Origin: Corallium rubrum
Lineage: Eukaryota; Cnidaria; Anthozoa; Scleralcyonacea; Coralliidae
Direction: 5' to 3'
Assembly: GCA_964035015.1 (NCBI GenBank)
Contig: CAXIUP010000095.1
Span: forward strand, 1-64,000
Length of the DNA: 64,000 bases
A program made the translations under genes and the position numbers. How positions within the stretch are numbered: position 1 is the stretch's first letter; every line of letters starts with the position of its first letter. Below are positions 20,411 through 51,335 of this stretch, in pieces. The notes beneath the pieces are model-generated. The model was not told the origin of the DNA and did not search any database. It saw only the letters and a program-made list of their open reading frames with translations.

Positions 20411-20411
20411 T

Positions 20412-20417
20412 CCTTTA
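20412..20417 (-). terminator. Candidate polyadenylation signal
   Basis: AATAAA on the minus strand, about 250 bases downstream of the TPR-CHAT stop codon. It is the nearest canonical signal I noticed. Use is not shown. Confidence 0.35.
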
Positions 20418-20668: not shown

Positions 20669-23600
20669 TCACAAGGTCATTTGGCGAGATTTGGTTTTTA
20701 TTTCTTCAACATCGTGCTTGGAAAACTTAACGTCTTCGCCGTAAATACTAAATGGTGCCCAAACCTGTAGATCTCGAAAAACATGGTGTTCATGATGTTG
20801 AAATATGATCATTGTCCTTCGCAAAGCCCCACAAACCGACGTTTCGTTGCAAATTTCATTATAGAAATTTTTCATGAACAATTTTGAACCCTCATCATGA
20901 ATAGGCCAGAGTGTGGCAAGAACGGAGCGAGCACCGGCTGCAAGAAATGCGCGTGCTAGACCAACGACTCCTTCTGAAGAGACATTTCCTCTTCCTGTAT
21001 GACAACAACATAGGACAACTAACCGGGCACTTATATGAATTTCAGTAATATCTTCTTCTCTTACAAGATAAGATTCTTCTTTGGGTAAGCCTGGGCTAGT
21101 TGAATTAGGATTTGGAGCAAGAAAAATTTCACCATGTTCTCCCTCCCCATGTGCGGCAATGTGAATTATGCCAGCGTTTTGAATTAATTGTAAAACTCGT
21201 TGCTTTATCGCCTTGTCTTCTACTAAGGGTTTAGCGTCAAAAAGCGGTGCAAGACATTCCGCTTCAGCTGTGGCGGATGGGAGCGGTTCCGGTTCAATTT
21301 CTAGGCCACGAAAACTAACTTTGCCGATAGTTGGATTACCAACAAACAATGCAAACCCTAGACTAGCTTGATGTGATTGCTTCATGCTGGCATAAAGAGT
21401 GTGCAGAGATGGTGTTATTTGAATACTGTAATTTTGTGAGATCGAGGAACCGTTTTCATCTTTCAAAGCACAAAATGGCACAAAAAACAAAAATTTGTCA
21501 GGAACGATAATCAATTTGTTTCCTTTAATAAACTGCTTAACAGGATTGATGAGTTTCTGAAACAATTCCTGTAAAATAAGAGTATGTTGTTCAATAGGAG
21601 GAGGTCTAGCCGGAGACCTTGGTTTGTCAACGTCAGCGGCCAGATCATAACGTTGCACTACTTGCAGTACATTCTTGATTTTCGAGTCAGAATCTTGGCG
21701 TGTGTTGGGAAGCAATATGCTTTCCCAAGACTGGGCCTTTTTGGAAAGTTTATTTTCGGAGTTCTCTAATTTACAATCTTCTGATCCTTTATTAGAATCA
21801 ATAAAATTCTCATTCAGTAACATCTGGTTCCATGGCATTTCCGCAATGATTTTGTGACGATCAGAAGTAGAATTTGAACTTAGTTTAACCATGGAGGAAT
21901 CACGATTTAAATTAACAGAATAAGTCTGAAGCAACATTTTCAAAATGTCGAAAATAGAATTCTCAGGTAAAGTCAGGTCATTATTTCCTTCCAAAACAAT
22001 GTGTTTAATATCATCCACGCCATTTAAAACCCAAATATGGAGAAACTTAGAAAAAAACACGTAGAATATAACAGTGGAACTATTTTTCTTGAGCAGGATA
22101 CCCTTCTCAATATTGTCTATTTCTAATTTCTCTTCATTTTTGTCGATATTTTTCCAGGTGTCACGTGTATAATTGACCATGTCATCAATCTCTGATTTCT
22201 TTCGTTTCTCGATAAAAGCATGCAGTGCCTTGGCCTTTCCAAGATCAATAACTAACAATGCGGCTTCAATGCGTTTTAACAAAAGAAAACAATACAATAG
22301 CATCAGATATAGTTGAAAGTATTCACTAGTGAATGATATCTTATTTTTGTCACCATCCAAGTCGAATAAAATCTTATCACCACACATAACAGATCTCTTA
22401 AGACATGACACAGCGTGTTTTAAGTTGCTCACATCTTCCGTTTCTCGAGCTACAGACAAATACAGTGACAAGTAAGAGTTCCCTATGTTTCCTAAAGAAA
22501 TGTATTCCAAACTTCGATTACCAATTTCTAAACTAATTTTAAATGCTTCTCCAAAACATTTAAGAGATTTTTGAAACTGCCCCATCTTGGAATATGCATT
22601 ACCTAGATTTACATTGTCACTTGCTATTCCTGACCGGTATCCTATTTCAGTGCTGATTTCTAGACCTTTATTATAATACTGAATAGCTTTTTCATAATGC
22701 CCCAAACAACAATAGGCAGTCCCTAAATTTCCATTGTTAATTGCTATTCCTGACCGATCTCCTATTTCAGTGCTGATTTCTAGACCTTTATTATAATACT
22801 GAATAGCTTTTTCATACTGCCCCAAACAACGATAGGCATTCCCTAAATTTCCATTGTTACTTGCTATTCCTGACCGATCTCCTATTTCAGTGCTGATTTC
22901 TAGACCTTTATTATGATACTGAATAGCTTTTTCATACTGCCCCAAACAACGATAGGCAGTCCCTAAATTTCCATTGTTATTTGCTATTCCTGACCGATCT
23001 CCTATTTCAGTGCTGATTTCTAGACCTTTATTATAATACTGAATAGCTTTTTCATACTGCCCCAAACAATGATAGGCAGACCCTAAATTTCCATTGTTAC
23101 TTGCTATTCCTGACCGATCTCCTATTTCAGTGCTGATTTCTAGACCTTTATTATAATACTGAATAGCTTTTTCATACTGCCCCAAACAATGATAGGCATT
23201 CCCTAAATTTCCATTGTCACTTGCTATTCCTGACCGATCTCCTATTTCAGTGCTGATTTCTAGACCTTTATTATAATAGTGAATAGCTTTTTGATACTGC
23301 CCCAAACAACGATAGGCAGACCCTAAATTTCCATTGTTACTTGCTATTCCTGACCGATCTCCTATTTCAGTGCTGATTTCTAGACCTTTATTGTAATAGT
23401 GAATAGCTTTCTCATACTGCCCCAAACAACGATAGGCAGACCCTAAATTTCCATTGTTACTTGCTATTTCTGACCGATCTCCTATTTCAGTGCTGATTTC
23501 TAGACCTTTATTATAATACTGAATAGCTTTTTCATACTGCCCCAAACAACGATAGGCAGTCCCTAAATTTCCATTGTCACTTGCTATTCCTGACCGATCT

Positions 23601-24441
23601 CCTATTTCAGTGCTGATTTCTAGACCTTTATTATAATACTGAATAGCTTTTTCATACTGCCCCAAACAACGATAGGCAGACCCTAAATTTCCATTGTTAT
23701 TTGCTATTCCGGACCGATCTCCTATTTCAGTGCTGATTTCTAGACCTTTATTACAATACTCAATAGCTTTTTCATACTGCCCCAAACAACGATAGGCAGT
23801 CCCTAAATTTCCATTCTCACTTGCTATTCCTGACCGATCTCCTATTTCAGTGCTCATTTCTAGACCTTCACTGTAATAGGAAATGGCTTTTTCATACTGC
23901 CCCATACTCAAATAGACCCTCCCTAAATTTTCAATGTTACGTGCTATTCCTGACCGATCCCCTATTTCAGTACTGAATGGCAAACCTTTATTATAATAGT
24001 GAATGGCTTCTTTATATTCTGCCAAAGCTAGATGCGCATTTCCTAATATTTCGCAACATTTTGCTTTGCCTGATTTGTCTTTAAGTTCATCTGTAATCTT
24101 TTCAGCTCTTAGGGTATATTCTAATGTTTTACTATATTGTGAAGTATTAAAATATATATCTGCAATTCTAAGAAGAATAGTTATTCTCGCACTCTTTTCC
24201 ACACCTAAATTACTTAATAATTTTTCGAACTCAAGATAGTACTTCAACATATCCGAAAATTCTCCATTTCCATCACATTTGAGAATAATCGAGGATAACA
24301 TTAATCCTTTCATCATTAAGTTACCTTGAAGAAGTTCCAGAGATCTATTTACTACATATTCAAAGTCATTCTTTCTTCCTTTGTCTTGTAGAATTTTTGC
24401 CGTCTCAGCAACAAACTCAATTACCATTTTAATGTTTCTGT
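20669..24441 (-). CDS. TPR-array CHAT-domain protein (putative protease), large exon
   Basis: An uninterrupted frame of 1252 codons from the ATG at 24427, open a little further upstream. Residues 1-120 are helical and TPR-like. From residue 122 come about 13 tetratricopeptide repeats of exactly 40 residues; those covering residues 202-601 are almost identical (core NLGxAYRCLGQYEKAIQYYNKG). A helical linker follows (about 640-950), then a C-terminal CHAT domain (about 960-1230). The CHAT catalytic pair is visible: His1093 in HIAAHGEGEHG and Cys1142 in LCCCHTG. CHAT (caspase HetF associated with TPRs) proteases are caspase-related. TPR-CHAT proteins are widespread and expanded in cnidarians and resemble proteins assigned to signalling or cell-death roles, but the substrate here is unknown. 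No signal peptide is seen. The ATG at 24427 may be internal: AG acceptors at about 24430-24441 would join an upstream exon in frame. Confidence 0.88.
22625..23824 (-). repeat. Ten near-identical 120-bp coding repeats
   Basis: TPR units 3-12 of the CHAT protein repeat at exactly 120 bp with very few substitutions between units, even at third codon positions. Variable sites include the residue before AYRCLG (S/T/N) and the QY/HY/EY position. The homogeneity points to recent unequal exchange or gene conversion. Confidence 0.95.
24430..24441 (-). promoter_or_regulatory. Candidate 3' splice site of the TPR-CHAT exon
   Basis: On the minus strand a T-run is followed by CAAGCAAG and AAACAG just upstream of ATG 24427. 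Cutting after the second CAAG or after AAACAG leaves one base before the next codon of the TPR frame. That fits the two leftover bases at the donor at 41251-41258. An in-frame TGA lies just upstream, so the frame cannot extend further without splicing. Confidence 0.45.
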
Positions 24442-24539
24442 TTCTTGCTTGAAAAATCTGTTTTCAGTTTAAAAATCTTAAGATTACTTTATATATCAAC
24501 AAAATTAAACAAAACGTCGGTTTGTAACTTGTTAACGTT

Positions 24540-25090
24540 TAACAATTACAAGTGCATATACGAGAATTTACATTATTTTTCTAAAAATCGGCCGTATCAA
24601 GACGATTCTAACGATATATAACACACCTTAAACGGATAAAAACTTCTCGAGATATCTTGCATCAAACATGAGTTTTTCAAAACATGGCCAGGAGAAAAGA
24701 GTCTGAGTCCGAATAACGCTGATGACGTCAAATCGGGACAAGCTGTAATCGACGACTACAGTTGTTTAGTTGTTTTAAGATCCAGATGTAGACATTGTCA
24801 CAAAACACAGAGTAATTGATAATTTTCTGAAGAGTCTCTCCAAACTATGGGTAAACAAATGTAGTCGTCCAACAGCTTGTCTCGATTTGACGTCATCACC
24901 ATTACTCAGACTCAGACTCTTTTCTCCCGGCCATGTTTTGGAAAAACCATTTTTGGGCTATGTTTGATGCAGTCTATCTAGAGAAGTTTTTACCCGTTTA
25001 AGGTACGTTATATATCGTTAAAATCGTTTCGATAAGGCCGATTTTTAGGGGGGAAAAGGAAAATTCTCGTATATGCACTTTAAACGTTTG
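24540..25090. mobile_element. Foldback element with AAGTGCATATACGAGAATTT ends
   Basis: Imperfect palindrome. The left end is AAGTGCATATACGAGAATTT (about 24550) and the right end is its inverse followed by TTTAA (about 25084). Inner arms include ACATGGCCAGGAGAAAAGAG and GACGTCAAATCGGGACAAGC with their inverses. It lies just upstream of the TPR-CHAT exon, inside the proposed intron. No coding capacity. Confidence 0.65.
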
Positions 25091-25219
25091 CGACAGACGG
25101 CGTTTGTACTGAACAGAGCTTTCGTAGAGATGGTGTAGTGGGTGGGGTGTACAGTTAAATTGACCCGGTATCACAAAGAAATTGTTTTCTTTTAAAGTAC
25201 ACACGTAAAAACACCGGGA

Positions 25220-25500
25220 TTGTTCCATACCTGTAAGCAAGTTGTTACAAAGCCGTCACAAGCCGTTACCAGGATGCATTCACACTGGTTGTTCCCAGTT
25301 TGTTAACAAGTCTGTAACAGGTTGTTGACAACTTGTAACAAAGTTGATGGCTTCAACGGACTTTTAACAAGTTGTTGCAATAATTTGTTATACTGCTCTG
25401 CACTTAACAAGTTGCTACAAGGTTGACAACAAGCTTGCATTGGCTTGATAAAATTACAACTTGTTAACAATTTTTAACTGCTACAAGCTTGTTCCGAACA
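25220..25500. repeat. Degenerate ACAAGTTGTTACAA-type repeat
   Basis: The words ACAAGTTGTT, TTGTTAACAA and TTGTAACAA recur many times in both orientations over about 280 bp. Together they make a self-complementary, degenerate tandem region. Non-coding. Confidence 0.55.
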
Positions 25501-25547
25501 CATCCCGTCAACGAGCTGTGGAATTTTTATACGCGTGTAGATTTGCT

Positions 25548-26102
25548 CAAACAAACAAACAAACAAACAAACAAACAAGTAAACAAACAAGACAAACAAA
25601 CAAACAAACAAACAAACAAACAAACAAACAAACAAACAAACAAACAAACAAACAAACAAACAAACAAACAAACAAACAAACAAACAAACAAACAAACAAA
25701 CAAACAAACAAACAAACAAACAAACAAACAAACAAACAAACAAACAAACAAACAAACAAACAAACAAACAAACAAACAAACAAACAAACAAACAAACAAA
25801 CAAACAAACAAACAAACAAACAAACAAACAAACAAACAAACAAACAAACAAACAAACAAACAAACAAACAAACAAACAAACAAACAAACAAACAAACAAA
25901 CAAACAAACAAACAAACAAACAAACAAACAAACAAACAAACAAACAAACAAACAAACAAACAAACAAACAAACAAACAAACAAACAAACAAACAAACAAA
26001 CAAACAAACAAACAAACAAACAAACAAACAAACAAACAAACAAACAAACAAACAAACAAACAAACAAACAAACAAACAAACAAACAAACAAACAAACAAA
26101 CG
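25548..26102. repeat. (AAAC)n microsatellite, 0.55 kb
   Basis: About 555 bp of AAAC tetramers, with one small interruption near 25577-25593. Frames of 180-266 codons (Asn-Lys-Gln-Thr or Val-Cys-Leu-Phe repeats) are artefacts. Confidence 0.95.
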
Positions 26103-26134
26103 AATAAAGGAAGGAGGGAAGAAATAAATAAATT

Positions 26135-26253
26135 ATGAATGAATAAATGAATAAATGAAAGAAAGAATGAATGAATGAATGAATGAATGAATGAATGAAT
26201 GAATGAATGAATGAATGAATGAATGAATGAATGAATGAATGAATGAATGAATG
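26135..26253. repeat. (GAAT)n microsatellite
   Basis: About 120 bp of GAAT tetramers, degenerate at the left edge (AATAAATG variants). Confidence 0.95.
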
Positions 26254-26289
26254 CATAACAAAATAACTAAACAACTGAATAATTGAATA

Positions 26290-26445
26290 GCTGAATAAAC
26301 GAACAAACGAACGAACAAATGAACAAACGAACGAACGAACGAACGAACGAACGAACGAACGAACGAACGAACGAACGAACGAACGAACGAACGAACGAAC
26401 GAACGAACGAACGAACGAACGAACGAACGAACGAACGAACGAACG
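26290..26445. repeat. (GAAC)n microsatellite
   Basis: About 150 bp of CGAA/GAAC tetramers, degenerate at the left edge (AACAAATG variants). It completes a run of three related tetramer arrays. Confidence 0.95.
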
Positions 26446-27008
26446 TGAGCGTATTAACTTCGCTATCGCTCGGTCAATACAGCAAGACCTCGGTTTAATA
26501 TTTTACCGTAAAGACCTCACTCTCGGTTATTAACTTATTAATACTAGACTTAAAGTGCATATGACATGAAAATTAAGTTTGGCTAATTTGAAAAAAATAT
26601 ATTAAAAATGACAAAGTAACACCTTTTCCAGTTCTGGTTTCCTTGCGTCGTTGTTGGGTTATTTCAATTTGTTTGATATGTAAACGTCACATGTTGTGAC
26701 GCACACACACACGTGTATAATGCTTTCTAGAGATGGTTATATATTGCCAAAACCGATAATCTGCGTCATGGGTAAAAAAAAAACACGTTATGATTTCCGC
26801 CCAAAACATTAACGAATCGCCAAAGTTCGCCAGTGGAAAACCGGCTTCATGCCATGTTTTTTTTTCGCCCGATGCCACGCATCATCGATTTTGATACTAT
26901 CTTTGCTATTATCAAACCGAACTCAATTTGAAGGAAGCGTGTTTTTCTCTCACAACACTAAACATGTAGAATTTAAAATAATTTTGTTTGATAATAGCAA
27001 CGATACAT

Positions 27009-27335
27009 AACCTTGGCGTGTGCTGTTAGGGCGCTGCCTCTCACCGCTGTAGTTAAGCCCAGTTGGACGGGGTTAGTACTTGGATGGGTGACCGTCTGGG
27101 AATAACCCCGTTCTCGAACTTGAATTTCATGTGAGTAGAGTTTAGTTGGTCTCTCCTGTGCTTCGAGGGTTTTTCGCAGGGTTCTGCGATTTTCCTCCCT
27201 CCGTAAAATCAACACATAGGTCTTAGCTTATGTCGTACACTTTTAACATGAGCCTCTGGCTCGGATGATTGGGCGACCACATCCTGTGCTTACGACGATA
27301 AATAAATCATTACTTATTACTCACTACTCATTACT
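27009..27335 (+). mobile_element. 5S rRNA-derived SINE (SINE3-like)
   Basis: 27071-27094 (GGTTAGTACTTGGATGGGTG then ACCG) matches the 3' internal promoter of eukaryotic 5S rRNA. The surrounding TAAGCCCAGTTGGACGGG and CTGGGAATAACCCCG are 5S-like, with changes. An unrelated tail follows, containing TCCTGTGCTTCGAGGG and GGCGACCACATCCTG, and ends in a TAAATAAATCATTA-rich 3' end. This head-plus-tail layout is that of 5S-derived SINEs, transcribed by RNA polymerase III. It is not a functional 5S gene. Confidence 0.75.
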
Positions 27336-27433
27336 CAAGTCATTATGCACGTTTATTATATGGCACAAGTTACTTCCGTTGAAATCGTGTGTTCTCATTG
27401 GCCGAGACGTGTCACGTGCCGGTCGATTATTTT

Positions 27434-27457
27434 CCGTAATCGACCGGTCGATTACGG
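27434..27457. repeat. Perfect 24-bp palindrome
   Basis: CCGTAATCGACC is followed directly by its inverse. It lies among GGTCGATTA words (27410-27460), perhaps the centre of a decayed foldback element. Confidence 0.8.
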
Positions 27458-27689
27458 ATATTGTCAGCCATGTTGTTTGTAACTAAACAACGAAAGAAAA
27501 CCGCAAGAATTTTGTGAATTCAACAACCTGAGGACTAAATTATGTATGATTGGGACGAGAGCAATCTGGAAGCGAGTTTAGGAGTCCGAAAGCGATGACA
27601 ACAAAAGCAACAACATTGAAAACGATGAGTTTATGTCACACGCTCGAGGTCACACTAAAATGACTAAAGTACGTATCATGACAAGGTAT

Positions 27690-27880: not shown

Positions 27881-28126
27881 AGTTAGTACATCACAACATG
27901 ATGATTTTTGGAGACGTTCTCTGGTTGAAAATATTTATTTATCACGAGCTTTCGGCTGCCAGACTGCAGCCTTCAACGGGTAGTTACAAAAAACAATGAT
28001 TGCAGACGACTACGGTTTACAATTACAGACTATACGCCTACGCTACGATTAACAATACAATGACAAACAAATAACTGGATGTGACAGTTCCGCCTATATG
28101 ATACTCTGTGAACTCTAACGATTGTT

Positions 28127-29165
28127 CTATTTCTTCAATAAAAAACGGTATTGTTCGGGTAGATGTTTTGAATTATTGTCAGCATTAGTTGTAAGCGCGG
28201 TGTGCCAGGATTCCAGTGTAGCTCTGTGGCGGTAGTTTGCTTTGTCAATTATCTTGCTGTTGTTGAAATCAATTTTATGGTCGTAAGACCAAGCATGATT
28301 CGCAATATTTGAGCCCGCTTTATATTTCTCGACATTTCTCATGTGTTCTTTTTTCCGTGTGATGAACGCTCGACCCGTCTCGCCAATGTAGTTCCACGAA
28401 CAATCGGCACAATTTATGCGATAGACTACATTTGTTTGTTCTTCGGATGGTGGTCTGTCTTTCGGTGAAGGGAGCATTTTTTCAAGCGTACGTAGAGGTT
28501 TCGTTGTGACTCGGATGCCATGGGGTTTGAGGAGGCGTTTGAGAGGTTCTGTTACGCCTTTAATGTATGGTAAAACAGCGTAGTCAACCTTTGTACTCGA
28601 GTCAACTCTTTCAAAGAACTCACGAACAAGCTCTTCTGGTGATGGTATTTTTTGTTTTCTCAGAGCACGTTTCTTTTCCACTTCTGTCAGAAACTTCTGT
28701 GGGTACCCATTAGCCGTCAATGCTTTCATGACATGTTCACGTTCTTGTTGTTTACCTTTGATCGTGTTAGGAAGTGTCGCTGCCCGGTGTAAGAGAGTTT
28801 GTGCTGTGCTAATTTTATGTTGTTTATCGTGATGTGAGTTAAAATCTAAGTAATTGTCAGTGTGCGTAGGCTTGCGATAGACAGTAGTGATAAGCGTTCC
28901 GTTGTTGCGAGAAACTGAAATGTCTAAAAATGAAAGTCGTCCGTCTTGTTCATGTTCTATAGTAAAGTTTATGTCTGGGTCAATGGAGTTCAGTAATTTA
29001 TGGAAGGAATCCAATGCATGTTTTTTGATGATCGAGAAAACATCATCAACATAACGGAACCATTTCTTAGGTGGTGTGGTTGCTTGAGCCAGAGCGAGTT
29101 CCTCAATAACCTCTAAACAGAGGTTTGCCACAATAGGGCTCAGACACTTCCTAACACGATCAAAG
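28127..29165 (-). pseudogene. Penelope-like reverse transcriptase / GIY-YIG endonuclease, 5'-truncated
   Basis: The element frame covers about residues 41-380 of the open frame. It starts within the reverse transcriptase at CLSPIVANL. The catalytic RYVDD motif is at 73-76, the thumb-like part follows, and a C-terminal GIY-YIG endonuclease has VYRI and NYIGETGR at about 282-300, preceded by a CADC pair. Arg305, His309 and Glu352 are plausible catalytic or structural residues. The order RT then GIY-YIG is diagnostic of Penelope-like elements. The N-terminal RT motifs are missing, so this copy cannot be autonomous. The frame downstream of the truncation is intact. Confidence 0.85.
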
Positions 29166-29808
29166 GTAAACAACAAGAACGTGAACATGTCATGAAAGCA
29201 TTGACGGCTAATGGGTACCCACAGAAGTTTCTGACAGAAGTGGAAAAGAAACGTGCTCTGAGAAAACAAAAAATACCATCACCAGAAGAGCTTGTTCGTG
29301 AGTTCTTTGAAAGAGTTGACTCGAGTACAAAGGTTGACTACGCTGTTTTACCATACATTAAAGGCGTAACAGAACCTCTCAAACGCCTCCTCAAACCCCA
29401 TGGCATCCGAGTCACAACGAAACCTCTACGTACGCTTGAAAAAATGCTCCCTTCACCGAAAGACAGACCACCATCCGAAGAACAAACAAATGTAGTCTAT
29501 CGCATAAATTGTGCCGATTGTTCGTGGAACTACATTGGCGAGACGGGTCGAGCGTTCATCACACGGAAAAAAGAACACATGAGAAATGTCGAGAAATATA
29601 AAGCGGGCTCAAATATTGCGAATCATGCTTGGTCTTACGACCATGCATAAAATTGATTTCAACAACAGCAAGATAATTGACAAAGCAAACTACCGCCACA
29701 GAGCTACACTGGAATCCTGGCACACCGCGCTTACAACTAATGCTGACAATAATTCAAAACATCTACCCGAACAATACCGTTTTTTATTGAAGAAATAGAA
29801 CAATCGTT
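29160..29808 (+). pseudogene. Second Penelope-like copy, endonuclease part, frameshifted
   Basis: Inverted duplicate of the 28127-28770 region. It lacks the RT domain and starts at about residue 165 of the partner. The encoded sequence is identical over about 150 residues, up to Tyr-Asp-His near 29640. A 4-base GCAT insertion there breaks the frame; the rest continues in another frame to the same C-terminus at 29798. It is inactive. Confidence 0.85.
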
Positions 29809-30190
29809 AGAGTTCACAGAGTATCATATAGGCGGAACTGTCACATCCAGTTATTTGTTTGTCATTGTATTGTTAATCGTAACGTAGGCGTATAGTCTGT
29901 AATTGTAAACCGTAGTCGTCTGCAATCATTGTTTTTTGTAACTACCCGTTGAAGGCTGCAGTCTGGCAGCCGAAAGCTCGTGATAAATAAATATTTTCAA
30001 CCAGAGAACGTCTCCAAAAATCATCATGTTCAATCCTGGTCGCACTTCCAGCATTTTTAAACATCACAACATGTGGCATTTACATATCAAACAATCTGAA
30101 ATATCCCTATAACGAAACAAGGAAACCAAAAACTGCAAGTTTAAGTGTTATTTCAAATAAGAAAATTTTAATTTTCGAGTCGTTTGTATT

Positions 30191-31627: not shown

Positions 31628-32122
31628 TCAGTAGTGATAACCCCCATATGGAGTTCAAAGGGATGCCTCCTCATTAAATATTCAACTTATCATTTATTCA
31701 TTCTCAGGATCCTTTGAGACCTCCTAACCCTAATCTCATTAGTATACATTTTATATAGCGGCGCGTTACGTCATTAATGGTTAACCCTAACTTATATCCA
31801 ACCCCCAAACCCTAGCTGTTACTCAACCCCCCTGGTATTCACTATACGTCATAACCGATATTATTTATGCATACGTCATTATTTCTCAGGCTCCTTTGGG
31901 ACGTAGTAACCCTAACTTCCCCCCTAAACCCTAGCTGTTACTCAACCCTCCTGGTATTCACTACGTCATAACCGATAGCTTTCCGACTGATTCCCGAAGT
32001 TACGTCATCATCAAAAGGCACTCGACTTATATCCTTATAAGTAACAGTAATTACGTTCTGATTTATACACTTTACCCTACTGACAGTCGACAGTTGTGGG
32101 ACACGTAGACGTACAGAGCATG
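31628..32122. repeat. Left terminal inverted repeat of Polinton-like element
   Basis: It starts near AGTAGTGATAACCCCC and holds GTTCAAAGGGATGCCTCC, ATTCTCAGG, CTAGCTGTTACTCAACCCCC and ACGTCATAACCGATA. It ends near CGTAGACGTACAGAGCATG. The inverse is at 39655-40850. A segment of about 130 bp (AACCCTAAC... to ...CATAACCGATA) is duplicated within this left TIR, and a further degraded piece lies at 32845-32930. Confidence 0.75.
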
Positions 32123-33230
32123 CGTACAGTAAACTTTAACAAAATAGACGTGCTTTACAAGGAACTAAAGAGAAATTAGTAGACACACTTTATATTTTTA
32201 ACTGAAATCTTGTCTGGAGGAATATAGCGGGTTTTGAGAAAGTAAAGGAGTAAAGAGAAATTAAATATAATAATAAACTGTCAGGGGTTAAACGGCTGAC
32301 TCGGCTATTTTATTAACGTCGTCAAGCATCTTGTTAATGTTGCTAAGGCTGATATTTCCATATTTATCCTAGAATCATTGCGACGAAATCGTAGGAAGAT
32401 AAAATGAAGAATCACTTCGAGAAGTCATAAAAAGAACGATTTTAAGTGTCGAAATATGAACTAAAGGCAAAGCGATTTATCACTTTGAAAGCGTTGCTAG
32501 GTTAACTGGAGTACAAACAGAGTAAGTCATCCTAGAATCACTGCTAACTAAACCCTCGTTTATAAGCGAGGAAGTCGTAGGAAGATAGAATGAGGAATCA
32601 CTATAAAAAGTCATGAAAAGCACGATTTTAGATGTTGAAATATAAAGGCAAAGCGATTTATCACTTTGAAAGCGTTGCTACGCTTTCTGTTACTAAGTGT
32701 GATATTTGAATATTTATCCTCAGTGCACGTGCAGGAGACAAAAGAGAAACTCATTAGGGGTCATTAAGAGGATTAAACGCTTAGGCAAGTTCTAGGCGAT
32801 ATCATTAGCAGTGTTACCATGGCGAAACCGCGTCCTTCATTCGTCTCAGGCTCCTTTGGGACCCTCTACTGTTACTCAGGCTCCCGTGTAATACGTCATA
32901 ACCGATAGCTCTCAGATTAATTCCCGATGTTTGACAAACGGTGTCTTTCATGTGTGGGGTCTCTGGAGTATACACCTCCTATTTTAAGTCTTAAGGCATT
33001 ATGAGAATATTTCGTTTGTATTCTTTCAATGACTTGGTGGCTCTTAAAAGCTGGTAATTTTTAAAATGTGATTTGTTTAAAGAAACATTTTTTATAATAA
33101 GACCAAATAACGAAATAAAGTTTCAAAAATATATAATTTCATATTTACCATCACACAAAGCTCCTAATATTTACAAACACGCAAAAGTTAAAATCCATAA
33201 GTATCGGAATTATTTACAATCACTCGCTAT
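32123..33230. other. Subterminal non-coding region
   Basis: Contains two direct copies of about 120 bp (32363-32500 and 32526-32690, with AAAGCGATTTATCACTTTGAAAG), and near 32845-32930 a third copy of TIR-like sequence. No gene is seen. Confidence 0.55.
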
Positions 33231-33559
33231 CTATTACGGTTGTATATCCAATATATGTTAAATATCTCACAGTGTACATAAAAACCCATTACATGTCAGT
33301 AGGACAAAGTGAATAAATCAAAGTTGATTACTAACACTTAGACTGAGGAGATGTCTTCGGGAGTCCAAAACCGTTGTGTAAATACGGAACGGTTTGCCGT
33401 ACTCGTAAGCCAATCGAAAAGTCGCGAGTATGAGGAATCCAATCGAGAAACTGTAAGAACGTAAGGTACAGACGAAATATTATTTGGCTATGGAATGGCT
33501 GAGTGCAATGTTGCCAATATTTGTATAAGTCCATGTACAGTATTGATGTTAATGCTCAT

Positions 33560-33715
33560 TAGCAATTTAAACAAAAGAACAAGTTTGGGCAAGTCTGGGC
33601 GACGTCAGAGTTTAAACAAAGAAATCCTAATTAATATGCTTATTCACGGCGTCGGTTCTCTCGGCGTATCATTTGACATTTGATTACTATTTGCTGTTGG
33701 AGTAAGACCGCAGAG
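33560..33715 (+). promoter_or_regulatory. Shared leader upstream of element gene (left arm)
   Basis: This block, with AACAAAAGAACAAGTTTGGG, GACGTCAGAGTTTA and GGCGTATCATTTGACA, ends at the start codon at 33716. It recurs inverted at 35827-35985, in front of the right-arm copy, and at 39134-39290, in front of the unrelated-looking GRF-finger gene. A common 5' region before different genes suggests a shared promoter or 5' UTR of the element. Confidence 0.5.
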
Positions 33716-34078
33716 ATGGAGGGTTTATATGAAAAATTGTTTTCAATGTTTGAGGCTATTTACAATGAAACTTTGTGGGAAGAATATTCGAAGCTTTGTC
33801 ATGAAAACTGCTACGGTTGTAGGACTAACCATCCTAGTCAGAAACAACACAGTTTCCTAACAGATGGTGAACAATGGAGAACGTACTACGAAGAGACCAG
33901 GACAAACGTGGGTGAACGTATCTGGATAGAGTTCAACGAAGCGATGCAGGCGTTGAAATTACGAAATCAAAGAGACTCTCAAAAAACTTCAGAGACAATG
34001 GCCGAGCAGATGGAAATTGACGACTCGCCAAATATTCTTTCCATATCTGTTCTGTTTACCAGTATCTGTACGAAGTAG
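33716..34078 (+). CDS. Element protein with C-C-H-C motif, left-arm copy
   Basis: A 120-residue frame starting MEGLYEKLFSMFE. Residues 28-46 hold a Cys/His cluster, C-x3-C-x2-C-x5-HPSQ-x2-H, likely a metal-binding knuckle; the right-arm copy has one more Cys. An acidic helical stretch (EQWRTYYEETRTNVGERIW) follows. After residue 115 the frame ends early: the right-arm copy and the DNA downstream show that the original protein continued into a module ending in an AYEEYLLEKS-like sequence, shared with the GRF-finger gene at 38.5 kb. This copy is therefore C-terminally truncated by a small indel. Function unknown; it may bind DNA or nucleoprotein. Confidence 0.55.
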   Translation: MEGLYEKLFSMFEAIYNETLWEEYSKLCHENCYGCRTNHPSQKQHSFLTDGEQWRTYYEETRTNVGERIWIEFNEAMQALKLRNQRDSQKTSETMAEQMEIDDSPNILSISVLFTSICTK

Positions 34079-34452
34079 AAGACACTGGTGAAACATTTAC
34101 AAGTACGATAAAGAATCCTCGGGAGGCTTATACGAGGAGTATCTTCTTGAAAAGTCTAGAAACTTAACGACGAAGAGCTATCTGAACTGATGCTATATGC
34201 GTTATTGCTATGTGTCGAATTAATCCAAAGTTAAATTATGTTTTAAGTTAAAAAAATTACTTGGACTATATAGTGTGTAAGAAAGATGTGTAATTTTATA
34301 CGTGTGTAATTTTATTTGAAGAAAAATTCATAAAGACATACGAGCAACATTATTATAGTTCTTTGTAGTTTATTTTCATATTTATAACAAATTACAGTGT
34401 GCATATTGACAGCTAATTATTTACATAAACTGTCCTGCATTTACGATTTCTT

Positions 34453-34656
34453 CTAGCGCACCCACTTCTTAGAGATATCGTTTGTTTCTCTGATGTCGAA
34501 GCACTGCTCGCTCTTTATAGGGAATTTTGATTTTTTCCGGGTTTTTTTGCGTTGTTTGTTATTTACGGACTCCCCATGCTGCTCTCTTAGATAATTATTG
34601 ATGTTTGTTGCCATTTCCTCTTGTCTCCTTATAATGCTTTTCAAAGTTTTCTCCAT
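34453..34656 (-). CDS. Basic coiled-coil-like element protein fragment
   Basis: A 67-residue frame starting MEKTLKSIIRRQEEMATN, with a heptad-like first half followed by REQHGESVNNKQRKK and a basic tail. The C-terminal 45 residues are also encoded on the opposite side of the palindrome (plus strand, 34934-35094), there joined to different upstream sequence. The function is not recognised. The start codon lies in the loop, the rest in the left arm. Confidence 0.35.
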   Translation of the reverse strand: MEKTLKSIIRRQEEMATNINNYLREQHGESVNNKQRKKTRKKSKFPIKSEQCFDIRETNDISKKWVR

Positions 34657-34781
34657 ATTTAGTTCTGTACTGTCTGCGATAGTTTCTTTACTCTGTAAAG
34701 GTACACATATTCCAATTTTACTCCATTTTAGCCATTTAGCGCGACCATTTTAGCCATTTATTTGAGAGTTGTTGTGTAAAC

Positions 34782-34961
34782 ATGCCTAGCGCTTGTAATA
34801 TTTGCGGAAAGAGCTTTTCAAGACAATTTAATTTACAACGCCACGTAAAGGTCCTGCATGGGGCAGATCGGCCAATACAAACGATGTCTACTGATTCTAC
34901 ATTTAAGCATTCTCCATTTGATGGAACCGCCAAGAGAGCAGCATGGGGAGTCCGTAAATAA
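34782..34961 (+). CDS. Small C2H2 zinc-finger protein in the palindrome loop
   Basis: A 59-codon frame starting MPSACNICGKSFSRQFNLQR. Residues 5-25 form a canonical C2H2 finger, C-x2-C-x12-H-x4-H, with the usual GKSF and LQRH elements. It reads into the right arm in a frame different from the conserved REQHGESVNN frame, so a one-base shift probably separated finger and tail. The original could have been a single finger-plus-basic-tail protein. No similar frame exists in the left loop half. It is below common ORF length cut-offs. Confidence 0.6.
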   Translation: MPSACNICGKSFSRQFNLQRHVKVLHGADRPIQTMSTDSTFKHSPFDGTAKRAAWGVRK

Positions 34962-35421
34962 TAAACAACGCAAAAAACGGAAAATATCAAAATTCCCTAT
35001 AAAGAGTAAGCAGTGCTTCGACAACAGAGAAACAAACGATAATTTCAAAGAAGTGGGTGCGCTAGAAGAAACCGTAAACGCAGGACAGTTTATTTAAAAA
35101 CATTTGTTTATGTAAATAATTAGCTGTCAATATGCACACTGTAATTTGTTATAAATATGAAAATAAACTACAAAGAACTATTATCATGTTGCTCGTATGT
35201 CTTTATTAATTTTTCTTCAGATAAAATTACACACATAAAATTACACAGCTTTCTTACACACTATATAGTCCAAGTAATTTATTCAACTTAAAACATAATT
35301 TAACTTTGGATTAACTCGATAATGTTCTTATAACACATATAGCATTTGTTCAGATTGCTTTTCGTCGTTAAGTTTCCAGACTTTTCAAGAAGATACTCCT
35401 CGTAAGCCTCCCGAGGATTCT

Positions 35422-35826
35422 TTATCGTACTTGTAAATGTTTCACCAGTGTCTCTACTTTGTATAGATACTTTAATGGACTGGTAAACAGAACAGATATG
35501 GAAAGAATATTTGGCGAGTCGTCAATTTCCATCTGCTCGGCCATTGTCTCTGAAGTTTTTTGAGAGTCTCTTTGATTTCGTAATTTCAACGCCTGCATCG
35601 CTTCGTTGAACTCTATCCAGATACGTTCACCCACGTTTGTCCTGGTCTCTTCGTAGTACGTTCTCCATTGTTCATCATCTGTTAGGCAACTGTGTTGTTT
35701 CTGACTAGGATGGTTAGTCCTACAACCGTAGCACTTTTCACGACAAAGCTTCGAATATTCTTCCCACAAAGTTTCATTGTAAATAGCCTGAAACATTGAA
35801 AATAATTTTTCATGTAAACCCTCCAA
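35422..35826 (-). pseudogene. Element protein with C-C-H-C motif, right-arm copy
   Basis: 134 codons, about 95% identical in protein to the left-arm copy. The start codon has changed to TTG (35824-35826). The Cys/His cluster is complete, with HSCL instead of HSFL. The frame continues past the truncation point of the left copy through KYLYKVE before a frameshift. Downstream DNA still encodes TGETFTSTIKNPREAYEEYL-like sequence in another frame. It is likely inactive. Confidence 0.6.
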
Positions 35827-36367
35827 TTCTGCGATCTTCCTTCAACAGCAAATAGTAAGCAAATGATACGCCGAGAAAACCGACTCCGTGAATAAGCATA
35901 TTACTTAGGATTTCTTTGTCTAAGCTCTGACGTCGCCCAAACTCGTTCTTTTATTTAAATTGCTAATGAGTCATTAATATCAATACTGTACATGGACTTA
36001 TACAAATATTGGCAACATTGCACTCAGCCATTCCAAAGACAAATAATATTTCGTATGTACCTTACGTTCGTACAGTTTCTCGATTCGATTCCTCATACTC
36101 GCGACTTCTCGATTGACTTTACGAGTACGGCAAACCGTTCCGCGTTTACACAACAGTTTTGGACTCTCGAAGACATCTCCTCAATCTAAGTATTAGTAAT
36201 CAACTTTGATTTACTCACTTTGACCTACTGCCATGCAACGGATTTTTATGTATATACTGTGAGATATTTAGCATATAATGGTATACAACCGTAATAGACG
36301 CCTATACGTTTTGGTTACTACTTGTTGTCAACAAAGGTTTAGTTGTTGCGGTGATTTTCTTCATGAT

Positions 36368-36693
36368 GAGTGAAGAACAGTACGAAGAAAAAATAAAGAA
36401 TGGAGACGAGCGATAAACCTTCGACTTTACCTACGGGATCATCAGCTTATAGAAAACCGCAGGGCCGAAGATTTAAACACACAATTACTTCGAGCATATA
36501 CAATCTTAAAACTAAAGAAAAGAAAGACACTACAGAGAATGATCACATATGTCAAGAGAAAGTGACAGAGCCTTGGCGTCTGAATGAAAAGCAGACATTT
36601 GAAAAACGGTGCTCTTATCGTAACGATAAAATATCATATTGTTTAACAATTTATGCTAATATGCAGCTGGAGAAAAGAAGGAAAAGAAGGTAA
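36368..36693 (+). CDS. Hypothetical 97-codon frame, unrecognised
   Basis: The frame from the ATG at 36400 encodes a basic, Lys/Thr-rich product ending EKRRKRR. It lies just outside the right palindrome arm, inside the Polinton-like element. An upstream 17-codon frame (36373) overlaps the leader. I recognise no domain. It may be an element ORF or chance. Confidence 0.2.
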
Positions 36694-36889
36694 TCTACGC
36701 TAGCACGATTTCCCAAGGCTTATATCGAGCGTATACTCGAACAGTCAAGGGATATGTTATACGAAGAGACTAAGCAGTTTTAGATAAGTTAATCATTTAA
36801 TCGAAACAGAAACATTAGTGCTTATACAAACTTTTGAAAAGTTGTGATTTTTGTGTTTGAGAGTTTTCTGACCTTCAGAATTCTGTAAA

Positions 36890-37020
36890 TTCTTCCCCCA
36901 AAATGCAGGAAATGGCATTTACAAGACTCTAGATTTCAAAAATTTACGGGGGGCATACCCCCGGACCCCCCTAGAAGAGTCCCTTCTGTGAACAGCTCCC
37001 CAATACAAAAATCGTTCCGC
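36890..37020. repeat. G/C-run repeat interrupting a Polinton gene
   Basis: Holds ATGCAGGAAATGGCATTTAC then GGGGGGCATACCCCCGGACC. It has the same layout as 4178-4290 and 13622-13740. The FYLTLPSNSS reading frame (next entry) loses its family sequence exactly where this repeat begins. Confidence 0.6.
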
Positions 37021-37189
37021 GGTCCCTGAAAGCTACTTCCCAGTCACCTGTCAGTTGTATAGTTTCAGCAAGCTTCACTTTAAAATTTGTTACAGTATTA
37101 TCTGGAAAATATTCCATAGAACTATTGCTTGGAAGTGTTAAATAAAACCATGGAACAATACACAAATGAACACAAATTGTAACATACAC
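37021..37189 (-). pseudogene. Polinton FYLTLPSNSS-type protein, N-terminal fragment
   Basis: Residues 15-50 of this frame contain FYLTLPSNSSMEYFPDNT followed by a Leu-Ala-Glu stretch and LTGDWEVAF. This resembles the N-terminus of a conserved protein that I associate with Polinton elements of marine animals. The recognisable part is cut off after about 35 residues by the G/C-run repeat at 36890-37020. It starts six bases after the integrase stop on the same strand, a compact arrangement. Its role (possibly a virion-type component) is inferred from family context only. Confidence 0.5.
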
Positions 37190-37195
37190 ACATTT

Positions 37196-38259
37196 TTATT
37201 TCGTTATATCTCTTACATTAGCGGCTGATACCCAAGAATTAAAATCTTCAGGGTAGCCTAACCATTTAACAAGGTATTCTCTACGTTTACCACGCATGCG
37301 TGATGTAATTACTCTTTCTATTCTATAAAAGTCACTATCTGTCTTTGTAACTCTTTGCAATTCCTGTTCGTAAAATGTTCCTTCTAACTCTTCTCCGAGA
37401 TCATCAGCAATCTTGTACACTGGCGGTCGTCTGGGTACTCGCTTCGTGATGGTGAACACCTCTTCGGTCCTGTTAGGTAAGTAGCGCTTCTTGAATGTAC
37501 GTCTTGCTTTGCTAATCCGGACTTGGTCACCAATGTTGAATATATATTTGATGGGTTTGCTGGACTCATCACCATACAGCTTTTGCCATACAATACTCTC
37601 GTTTTCTCGATTGACATCAGCCAGTCTCATCCCAATACTGCGGTGTCTCGAATGCTTGTAGGAATATACTAATTTTTGTAGTACACTGATCGGTATATTT
37701 CAACGTATTCTTTGCTGTAAAATATTTCCACATTTCCCCCTTTAACGTTTGGTTAAATCGTTCAACGATGGATGCTTTGGTATCATTGTGTGTTGTGAAA
37801 AATCGAATATGTTTGTCCTTCAATAACTTTTGAAAACCTTTATTGGTAAATTCTGTTCCTTTATTGGTATGTAGTTTTTCCGGCTTCCTTCCTTTCTTTA
37901 GTATCTTTTCAAAGGCTTTAACCAAACTCTCTCCAGTCTTTGTTTTTAATGGTTCCACCCACGCAAATTTGGACAGTACATCAATAATAGTTAAAACTAT
38001 TTGTTTTACTCAGCGAGGCCATAATTACTAGATCTGCCTCCTATTGTTCATCCATCGCTCCAACAATAACACGATTTCGCTTGAAAATATGTCGTACGGG
38101 TTGTTTTTTTTGTTTTTTTTGTCGTACGGAAAATATCTTGTTTCGGGATATCTGGAATTTTCCGTCAATTTTTACGACACGGTATAAGGCATCTACGCCG
38201 CCAAAACTTGCCGGACTTTTTGGGTTGTAATACAGATCGTGAAGGTACTGTTCCGCCAT
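37196..38259 (-). pseudogene. Polinton-type integrase with chromodomain, broken
   Basis: Three pieces in different frames on the minus strand. The N-terminal part (38259 to about 38030) contains EQYLHDLYYNPKSP. The rve core (about 38000-37690) contains TIIDV (first catalytic Asp), HTNKGTEF and KASIVERFNQTLK (catalytic Glu). The C-terminal part (37680-37196) contains the SH3-like FNIGDQVRISKARRTF, the YEQELQRV motif and a chromodomain, EYLVKWLGYPEDFNSWV. Damage: an in-frame TAG just after DEQ near 38040, a frameshift near 37990, the second catalytic Asp replaced by Asn (37843 region), and a frameshift near 37690. It would insert element DNA in an intact element; it is dead here. Confidence 0.8.
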
Positions 38260-38501
38260 CTAATTCGGATGCCTGTATCACAATTCCTCCCCCCCCCCCC
38301 CCACACACACACCACACAGCACGCCGAAATACAGCGAATCTTTCGAAAAATATTACGAAGGGCTATTTGTGGTAAACCTCCACAGCAAGTCATGTTCACG
38401 CGACAAAGGTTAGAGGTAAATGAATAAAGAGGAGTCAATGACACGATATAAATACAAACATATTTATTACATATTAAATTAGAATACAAAATTATATAAG
38501 T
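38260..38501. other. Gap with C-run microsatellite
   Basis: Non-coding. A poly-C/(CA)n tract lies at 38287-38315. No gene. Confidence 0.5.
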
Positions 38502-39133
38502 TCAACAAATGTTCAGTTTTGCAATATCTTCAACCATTTCGTCAACGGACTTTTGGTGAAGAAATTCTTCATAGGCTTTCTTATGATCAGTTTCGTGGCT
38601 CGTGAATGGCTCTCCAGTCTTTTTGACTGTATATCGGTAGGATGGAGGCATACTGAACAGAACAGTGCAAAAAGGTTCCAGTGGATCTTCTTGCGGTTTC
38701 CATTCGAAAAAGTCACAGCAGTATTCTCTCTCGTTGGGACACGAGTAAAATAGACGACCTTGGTTGTCACCCTCTTTCTTGCCTTTTTGGATACGGCAAA
38801 CCTTTCTATGTTTACACATTGGCTTGGGACTGTCAAACACATCTTCCCATTGCCAAAACGAGCAGTGATTCTCTCGTTCAGAACAGACAAAGTAAGGTCT
38901 CCCGTAACTTTCTTTCATTTTGTCTTTAACCACACGCAGGGTCGCCAGCATCTGATGGGAAGAACACACTGGATGTATACAGCCACTTGTTCGAAAAGCA
39001 TCTACGCTTTGCCAAACATGTAACGATCTTCTTCAGGACAGAAAAACTGACAGCTAGGCTTTTGTCCACAGAACCAGAATAAGCCATTCTTGGTCGTTGA
39101 GTTAGATGCAAGTTTACCGTGAAGACACTCCAT
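38502..39133 (-). pseudogene. GRF-type zinc-finger protein of the Polinton-like element, broken
   Basis: Start ATG 39131-39133 (MECLHGKL). Finger 1 has FWFCGQKPSCQFFC, then a stop at 39002. The frame is shifted between about 39000 and 38980 and continues from 38969 to 38502: finger 2 (GRPYFVCSERENHCSFWQW), finger 3 (CKHRKVC, GRLFYSCPNE, CCDFFEW) and a C-terminal module YRYTVKKTGEPFTSHE with AYEEFLHQKS. GRF fingers (G-R-x-F/Y-x-C ... C-x-F-F-x-W) bind single-stranded or structured nucleic acid in APE2, TOP3A and similar proteins, so a role in element DNA handling is plausible. One stop/frameshift makes this copy defective. Confidence 0.65.
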
Positions 39134-39290
39134 TACAACGATCTTACCCTGACGACAAACAGTAAGCGAATGATACACCAAGCGAAGTGACGCCGTAATT
39201 TTTCTATCTAAACTCTGAAGTCGCCTGGACTCGCCCAGACTCGTTCTTTTGTTTAAAATACTAATGACCTCCCAATGAGATTTTACACAT
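39134..39290 (-). promoter_or_regulatory. Shared leader upstream of the GRF-finger gene
   Basis: On the minus strand this reads AACAAAAGAACGAGTCTGGG, GGCGACTTCAGAGTTTA, TACTGTTTG and GGGTAAGATCG, then the start codon. It is the third copy of the leader seen at 33560-33715 and (inverted) 35827-35985. Confidence 0.5.
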
Positions 39291-39654
39291 GGAAATATGC
39301 AAATATCAGTCTGAGAAGCAGTGAACCAAGGCATCGGAATAAAGTTTTATTTCGTTTGTATTTAGACAAGTCAATACATCTCAAATCGTTTATCGTTCTA
39401 CTGACGGATTCTCGAATTGATTCTTCATCCAAGGATTCGTTTACTCTATACACTAGGGTTAGTAAGCGATAATTCGACCAAAATTACTAACATTCATCTC
39501 TTCATAAACGTGTTGAAGACATATTCTGGGTATTTGGTCACTGATGCTGTTGAATACTAGTACTCGATATTCTTCTAGACAATGTGTAAGGTAATACGAC
39601 AGTGTCTCTGTCGATATCAATGTTATTTTTCTTTAATTCATCGTAAATAATATC
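39291..39654. other. Element interior without gene
   Basis: No coding region is seen. Short words similar to the palindrome flank (GACTGAG, TCTCGAATTG) suggest further decayed element sequence. Confidence 0.4.
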
Positions 39655-40224
39655 CATGATACGCTCTGTACGTCTATGTGCCCCACAAGTGTTGACCATC
39701 AGTAGGGTAATTGGGTAAAGTGTATAAATGAATTTTTAGTTCCTATTACTTATATAAGTCAAGTACCTTTTAATAATAACTATCTTCGGAAATCAGTCGG
39801 AGAGCTATCGGTATTAATACGGATAAATAATAAGTAATATTGGGCATTTCACTCGATTACATAGCGTGTACTAAGGATTTTGGGTGAAGGAAAATTCGAG
39901 TGTAGAATATATACATTTTAAGACCAAACCGGGACCAGTTGCGAAAAATGCAACTACACAGGCCTTCCGGCAGGAATTGAACCCATGCAAGGTCGTGGGT
40001 TCAATTCCTGCCGGAAGGCCTGTGTAGTTGCATTTTTCGCAACTGGTCCCGGTTTGGTCTTAAAATGTATATATTCTACACTCGAATTTGCCTTCACCCA
40101 AAATCCTTAGTACACGCTATGTAATCGAGTGAAATGCCCAATATTACTTATAATATACCCAATTCTCTCCTGGCATTACCACCTTATTATATATACAGAA
40201 CTCGCGATCAAGCTCTCGGCAACG

Positions 40225-40296
40225 CCATCCGTGGCTCAGTGGTCAGAGCATTGCACTAGAATCGCAAGGTCGTGGGTTCAATTCCTGCCGGAAGGC
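40225..40296 (+). tRNA. tRNA-like head of retroposon monomer, probable pseudo-tRNA
   Basis: Folds as a cloverleaf. The acceptor stem CCATCCG/CGGAAGG has one mismatch. The D arm is GCTC..GAGC. The anticodon stem TTGC/GCAA carries loop CTAGAAT, which would place AGA at 34-36. The T arm is GTGGG-TTCAATT-CCTGC with wobble pairs. Box A TGGCTCAGTGG (40232-40242) and box B GGTTCAATTCC (40275-40285) are good. An AGA anticodon would mean serine, but the long variable arm of tRNA-Ser is absent. It is therefore a tRNA-derived SINE head rather than a working tRNA. Confidence 0.45.
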
Positions 40297-40501
40297 CTGT
40301 GTAGTTGCATTTTTCGCAACTGGTCCCGGTTTGGTCTTAAAATGTATATATTCTACACTCAGATTTTCCTTCACCCAAAATCCTTAGTACACGCTATGTA
40401 ATCGAGTGAAATGCCCAATATTACTTATAATATACCCAATTCTCTCCTGAAATTACCACCTTATTATATATACAGAACTCGCAATCAAGCTCTCGGCAAC
40501 G

Positions 40502-40573
40502 CCCTCCGTGGCTCAGTGGTCAGAGCATTGCACTAGAATCGCAAGGTCGTGGGTTCAATTCCTGCCGGAAGGC
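40502..40573 (+). tRNA. Second tRNA-like head, 277 bp downstream
   Basis: Identical to the first tRNA-like head except for C instead of A in the acceptor stem. It has the same boxes A and B. Its 3' tail is cut at the 15-bp duplication. Confidence 0.45.
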
Positions 40574-40861
40574 CTGTGTAGTTGCATTTTTCGCAACTGG
40601 TCCCGGTTTGGTCTTAAAATGTATATATTCTACACTCAAATTTTCCTTCACCCAAAATCCTTAGTACGGATAAATAATAGTCGGTTATGACGTAGTGAAA
40701 ACCAGGGGGTTGAGTGACAGCTAGGGTTTAGGGGATTGGATAAAACTTAGGGTTAGGAGGTCCCACAGGAGCCTGAGAATGAATAAATAATAAGTTGAAT
40801 ATTTAATGAGGCGGCATCCCTTTGAACTTCAGAGTGAGGGTTATTACTACTTCAAGCATTA

Positions 40862-41050
40862 CAGTAACATTTAAATTTTATAAGTCCGACGCTCTGTCTG
40901 TTGAGCTACAAAAAGTAGTTGCCTTTGGGCTACAAAAAGAAGAGCAAGTTGGCCTTTTAGTTATGTTAGTAGTGTATAGGTAGAGCATCAGACTAGTAAA
41001 CCGAAGGCCGCAGGTTAGAATCCCAGCTGCGGTCAAGTGTGGTTTTTCTC
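40862..41050. mobile_element. Second, degraded tRNA-derived SINE
   Basis: 40978-41035 (GGTAGAGCATCAGACTAG, GGTTAGAATCCCAGCTGCGG) reads as the second half of a tRNA on the plus strand, with a box B-like GGTTAGAATCC. Just left, at 40887-40907, GCTCTGTCTGTTGAGCTAC is the inverse of a tRNA D arm (GTAGCTCAACAGACAGAGC). The two halves face opposite ways, so this is a rearranged tRNA-derived element. Confidence 0.45.
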
Positions 41051-41250
41051 TACTTGTTCAGTATAGTTTGTTCACATGGAGTAGCACCTGACTTTACTAG
41101 AGCGTTGGCAAAGAGAATTAAAGATTGTGAGCTGATCAATTTGAAAGCAAGTACATGCCTTATCTTTCAATTCGTAGGCAATGTCGCCTTGCGTTATTGC
41201 ACGTCAGAAGTGGCTAAAAACCCATCATAATTTCTCAGCAATTGTAATTC

Positions 41251-41679
41251 CTACCTTAATTTCCTCCTATGTTCCTCTGCTTCCTCTAAATTGTTAATCT
41301 TTATGGTGAGATGTTCCACATCACTTCCAATTTTTGATAGTTCTTCCTTTAAACGTTCTTTTACCTTTCCTGATTCATAATCCGCGAGAAATTCCAGAAA
41401 GCTCTCAGCTGTGTAGCAATGAAGGTCAACAAGGAGGGAGCCACGATTGAAATCACCAACAACTCGATCTGCTCCACCAAGTGCAATTTCAAAGGCATCT
41501 TTTACTAGTGTTGCACAACTTGTATCGCTGTAATAAAATGCAGCCAGACCTAGTGTGGCTACTGTAACTCCAATAACTTTTGTAGCTATTCTTTCGTTGT
41601 CAGTTCTAAGACGAAAGGTAAATATTCCAAAACCGACCTCGATATCAAGTGCTCGTCCAGCCTCATTCTGCGCATCCAT
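41251..41679 (-). CDS. TRADD-N-like adaptor exon, probable 5' exon of TPR-CHAT gene
   Basis: 142 codons from the ATG at 41679; an in-frame TAG lies five codons upstream, so this is the first possible start. Residues 31-50 are hydrophobic (IATKVIGVTVATLGLAAFYY), a possible membrane or helical segment. Residues 79-130 (RGSLLVDLHCYTAESFLEFL, then YESGKVKERL and HLTIKI) resemble the TRADD N-terminal fold family found in animal cell-death adaptors; this is pattern recognition, not a search. The frame ends AAATTAAG|GTAGGA: the stop TAG lies inside a good 5' splice site, so the exon probably continues into another. TPR-CHAT at 20.67-24.44 kb, on the same strand and in matching phase, is the best candidate partner. 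Confidence 0.6.
   Translation of the reverse strand: MDAQNEAGRALDIEVGFGIFTFRLRTDNERIATKVIGVTVATLGLAAFYYSDTSCATLVKDAFEIALGGADRVVGDFNRGSLLVDLHCYTAESFLEFLADYESGKVKERLKEELSKIGSDVEHLTIKINNLEEAEEHRRKLR
41253..41259 (-). promoter_or_regulatory. Candidate 5' splice site
   Basis: On the minus strand AAG|GTAGGA overlaps the apparent stop codon. A cut here leaves two bases of a codon, matching the one-base phase of the acceptors at 24430-24441. Confidence 0.45.
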
Positions 41680-51330: not shown

Positions 51331-51335
51331 GCATT

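Follow-up and report, generated by a model that had tools for sequence, protein, structure and literature searches.

Parts of three reports describe a TTC28-like gene family in corals that encodes many tetratricopeptide repeats (TPRs) followed by one CHAT domain, and that occurs in tandem arrays and in large copy number (PMC12314368, PMC9145168, PMC6208414). The passages concerned give 276 and 304 TPR-CHAT genes for two Acropora species and a range of 6 to 362 across the corals studied (PMC12314368), and the expansion is also described in sections of PMC6208414 and PMC9145168. An immune or cell-death role is suggested by the authors in parts of PMC6208414 and PMC12314368, and a cell-cycle role is suggested instead in a part of PMC9145168, where it is also stated that TTC28 carries CHAT. 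The second relevant system is that of the invertebrate TRADD-N proteins: according to portions of PMC8195603, those of the DEDD2 clade include fusions with TTC28-like TPRs, and TRADD-N ankyrin fusions are named for the cnidarian NCOA6 clade; the word CHAT is absent from that report. Here, we analyzed a 64,000-nucleotide stretch of Corallium rubrum DNA (contig CAXIUP010000095.1 of assembly GCA_964035015.1, positions 1 to 64,000; hereafter the window), at the start of a contig (C112) that is 415 kb long, in a genome of 474 Mb. It holds a TPR-CHAT coding exon and, upstream on the same strand, a short TRADD-N-like exon, which the initial annotation had tentatively joined into an adaptor-TPR-CHAT gene across an intron full of mobile elements. 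Both coding pieces are real; the fused gene probably is not. With a probability of roughly 0.8, the TRADD-N-like exon is a stray that lies in intron 1 (26.7 kb) of an ordinary TPR-CHAT gene transcribed from 51154-51340.

The TPR-CHAT coding exon (exon 2; 20669..24457, minus strand) lies in an open frame of 1264 codons (20669-24463, minus strand). Its translation matches Pfam TPR_12 (E 5.5e-105, 344.2 bits), with the TPRs N-terminal to a match to Pfam CHAT (E 2.7e-51, 175.2 bits against a curated cut-off of 24), in agreement with the identity proposed for this exon in the initial annotation. The CHAT (caspase-like) domain was placed at 20738..21574 (minus strand) by a genome family search. Its only significant solved relative is 8rot (E 1.6e-7), with the His and Cys of which His 1105 (21151-21149) and Cys 1154 (21004-21002) of the window protein align, a pair that we take to be catalytic. 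The TPRs form an array of near-identical 120-bp units at 22472..24091 (minus strand), recovered as repeat family D7 (12 copies of 300 nt, each offset by 120 nt from the last and overlapping it, eight of the 11 others being 94-95% identical to the reference copy); the earlier estimate of about 14 TPRs was reasonable, the motif count being 12 units. That these units are mostly 94-95% identical as DNA suggests that the gene underwent internal duplication or homogenisation recently.

TPR-CHAT genes are arranged head to tail on C112, and the window locus forms one unit of their array. A profile search returned 114 CHAT matches genome-wide (split genes were counted more than once), and the 11 that fall on C112 share the minus strand. 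This copy number fits the expansion published for corals. Our sequence comparisons on this contig cover 1-264 kb of its 415 kb, together with small pieces of other contigs, and within 1-264 kb seven TPR-CHAT genes were compared, the window gene included. The 3' flank of the tandem unit (16690..20671, minus strand) was recognized by blastn as pieces about 86-93% identical to sequences beside the 3' ends of other array genes. Conserved blocks at 67-72 kb, beside the 3' end of the next gene, and their equivalents were rejected as upstream exons because they are this same 3' flank, the window gene having the block at 16.7-20.7 kb, and a conserved segment directly 5' of the coding exon was rejected as an exon candidate, being repeat-like and without a visible conserved frame. 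In domain content, no difference was seen between the window gene and the coral TPR-CHAT family, and it looks like a further copy of a protease-like family whose expansion in corals is established; the window unit differs from that family in its long intron 1 with transposon-like sequence and a foreign exon.

The start of the coding exon was located by aligning 13 paralogs, the seven on C112 and six from other contigs. Similarity begins in all 13 right after the AG equivalent to 24459-24458 (minus strand), which directly precedes AT[ATG]TTT and constitutes a conserved 3' splice site of phase 0. The similarity of diverged copies also starts there, and two of them (L048 and L049) have pyrimidine-rich sequence before the AG. 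A query of 116 amino acids taken from the exon start gave 86 matches in the genome (one exon being split in two), of which 73 begin at query residue 1 to 3. Upstream of each of the seven C112 array genes, and twice in one of them, we found a segment of about 190 bp on the gene strand, which ends in the donor GTAAGTAG in seven of the eight copies and in GTAATTTAG in the window copy. A genome search with 200 bp of this segment returned 40 copies, the window copy (51169-51340) being 81% identical over query bases 1-187. A same-strand TPR-CHAT start follows within 50 kb downstream in 38 of the 40, at distances of 1,394 to 26,706 bp (27 of the 38 under 7 kb, five over 20 kb), and an opposite-strand TPR-CHAT start within 50 kb downstream in none of the 40. 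The two copies without a listed TPR-CHAT start downstream are on C62 and C210; that on C62 is followed, 7 kb downstream on the same strand, by a CHAT match whose exon start is absent from the list. These alignments and genome-wide copies strongly suggest that 51154-51340 (minus strand) is the first exon of the window TPR-CHAT gene, a 5' untranslated region (5'UTR) exon of about 190 bp of which only the 3' boundary is placed. An explicit translation indicated that splicing 51154 to 24457 leaves a stop codon in frame a short way upstream of the coding exon, and hence translation most likely starts at ATG 24427, which is kept in 11 of the 13 paralogs, giving a product of 1252 amino acids.

The short exon (41255..41688, minus strand) is coding from ATG 41679 and ends at a phase-2 donor, GT 41254-41253. 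The 145-codon open frame 41254-41688 (minus strand) indeed contains AAATTAAG|GTAGGA, leaving two bases over, as the initial annotation had read it. This frame has 18 further matches in the genome: nine close relatives with 64-76% identity (contigs C51, C49, C8, C37 and C46) and nine distant ones with 33-44% identity (C53, C282 and C28). The donor is in phase 2 in all 19 copies and reads AG|GTAGG or AG|GTAAG in 18 of them, the remaining one (L021) having GG|GTAAG. The TRADD-N pattern that had been noticed is present as profile similarity and is weak, the window copy scoring 15.2 bits against Pfam TRADD_N, below the cut-off of 25. When 16 of the 19 family members were scanned against Pfam with E up to 1 (the near-duplicates L023, L025 and L027 being left out), TRADD_N was matched by 13 (best E 1.8e-4) and TRADD-like_N by 12 (best E 0.002); the same scan gave values down to E 0.005 for unrelated families. 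In a test with PF09034 and PF20694, every tabulated member fell below the curated cut-offs, the best of six relatives attaining 21.4 of 25 bits. A genome search with PF20694 gave no match at E 0.1, so this profile cannot map the family. No Death-fold domain was matched in the short exon, and in the PDB, the exon and its family matched ribosomal proteins (uS8/S22) and a designed protein at E 0.32 or worse, matches that were dismissed as chance. We call the exon TRADD-N-like and do not file it as a TRADD-N member. The distant relatives (L019-L027), seven of which lie within 0.4 Mb of C53 (1.53-1.92 Mb), carry an extra segment of about 33 residues and have a stronger TRADD_N score. The close relatives (L010-L018) have, before the TRADD-N-like part, a hydrophobic stretch rich in Gly, Ala and Val that may be a membrane segment, and the N-termini of L010 and L011 carry AGQEAAPE-type repeats.

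The close relatives have partners of their own. Four of them (L010, L011, L017 and L018) possess a second exon of 121, 109, 118 and 127 bp, respectively, all 1 mod 3, which codes for a linker of about 40 residues (37-43) and passes from phase 2 to phase 0. This linker exon is found at eight places genome-wide, each 0.35 to 11 kb downstream of a close short-exon copy on the same strand, and eight of the nine other close copies have one; the genome search found none for the copy at C37:10.9 Mb. For the window copy, a search of C112 1-264 kb revealed no linker exon, and the genome-wide search gave no match on C112. In at least five of the eight loci, an ankyrin-type exon with an open frame of 709 to 1718 codons follows within 1.4 kb after the linker exon, five being a lower bound since 150 of 396 candidates were scored; the sequence after the linker exon at C37:5.717 Mb, C46 and C8, and that after the nine distant relatives, lay outside the coverage. 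Four of these exons are 79-100% identical to the query and the one on C37 is 40% identical; the ankyrin identity was shown by Pfam for L010. No ankyrin exon was found in C112 1-264 kb, and none of the matches listed is on C112. In the window, pairwise matches to the TRADD-N-like gene family are patchy and run from the 5' flank through exon 1 into the first 400 bp or so of intron 1 (40854..42250, minus strand). They stop abruptly at 40854, beside a terminal repeat of a transposon-like stretch (31630..40851) that is bounded by inverted terminal repeats of about 105 bp and 90% identity (31630-31733 and 40747-40851), its end coinciding with the TRADD-N-like breakpoint, and that contains integrase core, chromodomain and GRF zinc-finger frames. 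These findings strongly suggest that the short exon derives from a separate TRADD-N-like / linker / ankyrin family, as a truncated copy of its 5' end. It resembles the DEDD2-clade TRADD-N proteins (as described in part in PMC8195603) in its weak TRADD-N match, its expanded and dispersed family and the ankyrin repeats joined to family members in at least five loci, and it differs from them in that it falls below the Pfam cut-offs, lacks a matched Death-fold domain and, in the window copy, has no C-terminal part. Simple insertion of a transposon into an intact TRADD-N-like gene was considered and rejected. Transposons of such type make 6-bp target duplications, and the six bases beside the two terminal repeats differ (GACGTC versus TCAAGC). 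Moreover, beyond the far repeat, the matches to the relatives compared look like a dispersed repeat (27014-27218), which is also present in other array units and, in both orientations, in L026.

Whether the short exon could nevertheless join the TPR-CHAT exon depends on splice phase and on the company that the two keep elsewhere. The arithmetic of the original phase argument is right, and AGs leaving the one base needed do exist: two lie in frame with the short exon at 24445-24444 and 24439-24438 (24438..24445, minus strand), and explicit translation of the short exon joined to exons starting at 24443 or 24437 gave products of 1399 or 1397 amino acids. The conserved acceptor, however, is elsewhere and in phase 0; the in-frame AGs lie within what is exonic in each of the 13 paralogs aligned. 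Only the window's own copy among the 19 has a same-strand TPR-CHAT exon within 50 kb downstream, as against 38 of the 40 copies of the 5'UTR segment, and close copies have the linker and ankyrin partners described above. The short-exon family profile, run over 4266 six-frame stretches of at least 30 residues from C112 1-264 kb, recovered only the window copy (next best E 6.4), and no TRADD-N-like exon was found near the other six TPR-CHAT genes of this region (for the seventh gene, within 12.8 kb upstream). Thus, the adaptor-TPR-CHAT pairing is not supported, and the short exon is most likely not a normal first exon of a TPR-CHAT protein. A gene in which it is spliced through AG 24445-24444 or 24439-24438 into an adaptor-TPR-CHAT protein of about 1400 amino acids would be compatible with the common strand, the intact donor, the two frame-keeping AGs, the constraint on the short exon discussed below and the TRADD-N fusions to TTC28-like TPRs reported for invertebrates in part of PMC8195603. 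Given a conserved acceptor out of frame with the short-exon donor, an upstream copy of the family's own exon 1 and no same-strand TPR-CHAT exon within 50 kb downstream of any of the 18 other short-exon copies, we consider such a gene very improbable. Even if it were real, a TRADD-N-TPR-CHAT architecture would not be without precedent, since passages of PMC8195603 list TRADD-N with TTC28-like TPRs and TTC28 carries CHAT; that report was the one judged relevant to such a fusion in a literature search on TRADD-N with CHAT and TPR.

The same donor can also be considered with the conserved acceptor. Explicit translation of this phase-2 to phase-0 junction gave a product of 153 amino acids, and the short exon might then serve as an alternative promoter and first exon for a small TRADD-N-like protein, perhaps with re-initiation at ATG 24427. 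Relatives of the short exon share pieces of its 5' flank, and the 153-residue frame stops at a TAA overlapping ATGGTAA at 24427, both of which would suit such a transcript; the donor could equally splice to unrecognised exons, and we regard this sequence-based proposal as unlikely, though less so than the fusion.

Several observations weigh against a stray exon within an ordinary gene. Over a core of 72 codons, the ratio of nonsynonymous to synonymous substitution rates (dN/dS) of the window short exon is 0.12-0.32 in pairwise comparison with the nine close relatives (six pairs among the relatives gave 0 to 0.71), and its private changes comprise four synonymous and one nonsynonymous. Since these values are low in nonsynonymous change, and with frame and donor intact, the exon looks constrained for much of its history; it either still works or was cut recently. 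The 5'UTR exon, for its part, we infer from conservation and position. Its donor in the window, TTTG|GTAATT, is weaker than the GTAAGT of the seven other copies in C112 1-264 kb, the window copy has the longest distance of the 38, and at large distances, that of the window included, the pairing of an exon 1 with a given gene is not certain. As to the start codon, two of the 13 paralogs have no ATG at the position of 24427 (GTG in g251183 and ACG in L050), and in none of the 13 is the frame of the coding exon broken by a stop or an indel over its first ten codons, which could mean that these codons are translated; an unseen upstream coding exon is therefore possible. A further scenario would be exon shuffling in progress, in which a promoter-bearing TRADD-N-like exon landed in intron 1 beside the transposon end and now acts as an alternative first exon via an in-frame secondary acceptor, creating a new adaptor-sensor-protease as the old 5'UTR exon with its weakened donor decays; we give this scenario very little credence.

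According to the preferred reading, that of a stray exon in intron 1, the transcript would begin at the 5'UTR exon 51154-51340, the 26.7-kb intron would be skipped, the coding exon entered at 24457 and translation begun at ATG 24427, a truncated TRADD-N-like copy having settled in the intron on the same strand, beside the transposon end. The idea that mobile elements lie inside an intron of a TPR-CHAT gene is supported. By analogy with known CHAT systems, in which the TPR superhelix senses and the CHAT protease is released on binding, the TPR superhelix of the window protein may act as a ligand sensor, binding to which would unleash the His/Cys CHAT protease, and the family may plausibly act in immunity or cell death. 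In place of an unsupported fusion, the locus yields a gene model, in which a conserved 5'UTR exon precedes the only coding exon with its start codon, for a family with about 85 matching exon starts. It also illustrates that an expanding, transposon-collecting array can come to hold right-strand first exons of other defence-type genes, and such stray first exons may be a possible raw material for the domain combinations of invertebrate TRADD-N.

Besides these features, the window is rich in repeats. Within the transposon-like stretch, nested inverted repeats at 33262-36265 are symmetric about 34.8 kb (one of 387 nt at 97% identity plus several more). At 27895-30030, inverted repeats of 509 nt (99%) and 385 nt (100%) surround a 350-bp centre; a 383-codon frame in this region (28127-29278, minus strand) had no Pfam match at E 0.01. 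Between the short exon and the 5'UTR exon, a 2.26-kb array of the hexamer TGTAAG (47770-50032; 377 copies, 99% match) has a GC skew of 1.000 at 48001-50000, where frames of 767-817 codons consist of the TGTAAG repeat only. Arrays of the pentamers TTGCT, TGGCG, TTGTT and TTTGC occupy 46442-47344, and similar tracts occur at about 1.7-2.0, 3.5-3.8, 53-54, 59 and 61 kb, as well as in other units of the contig.

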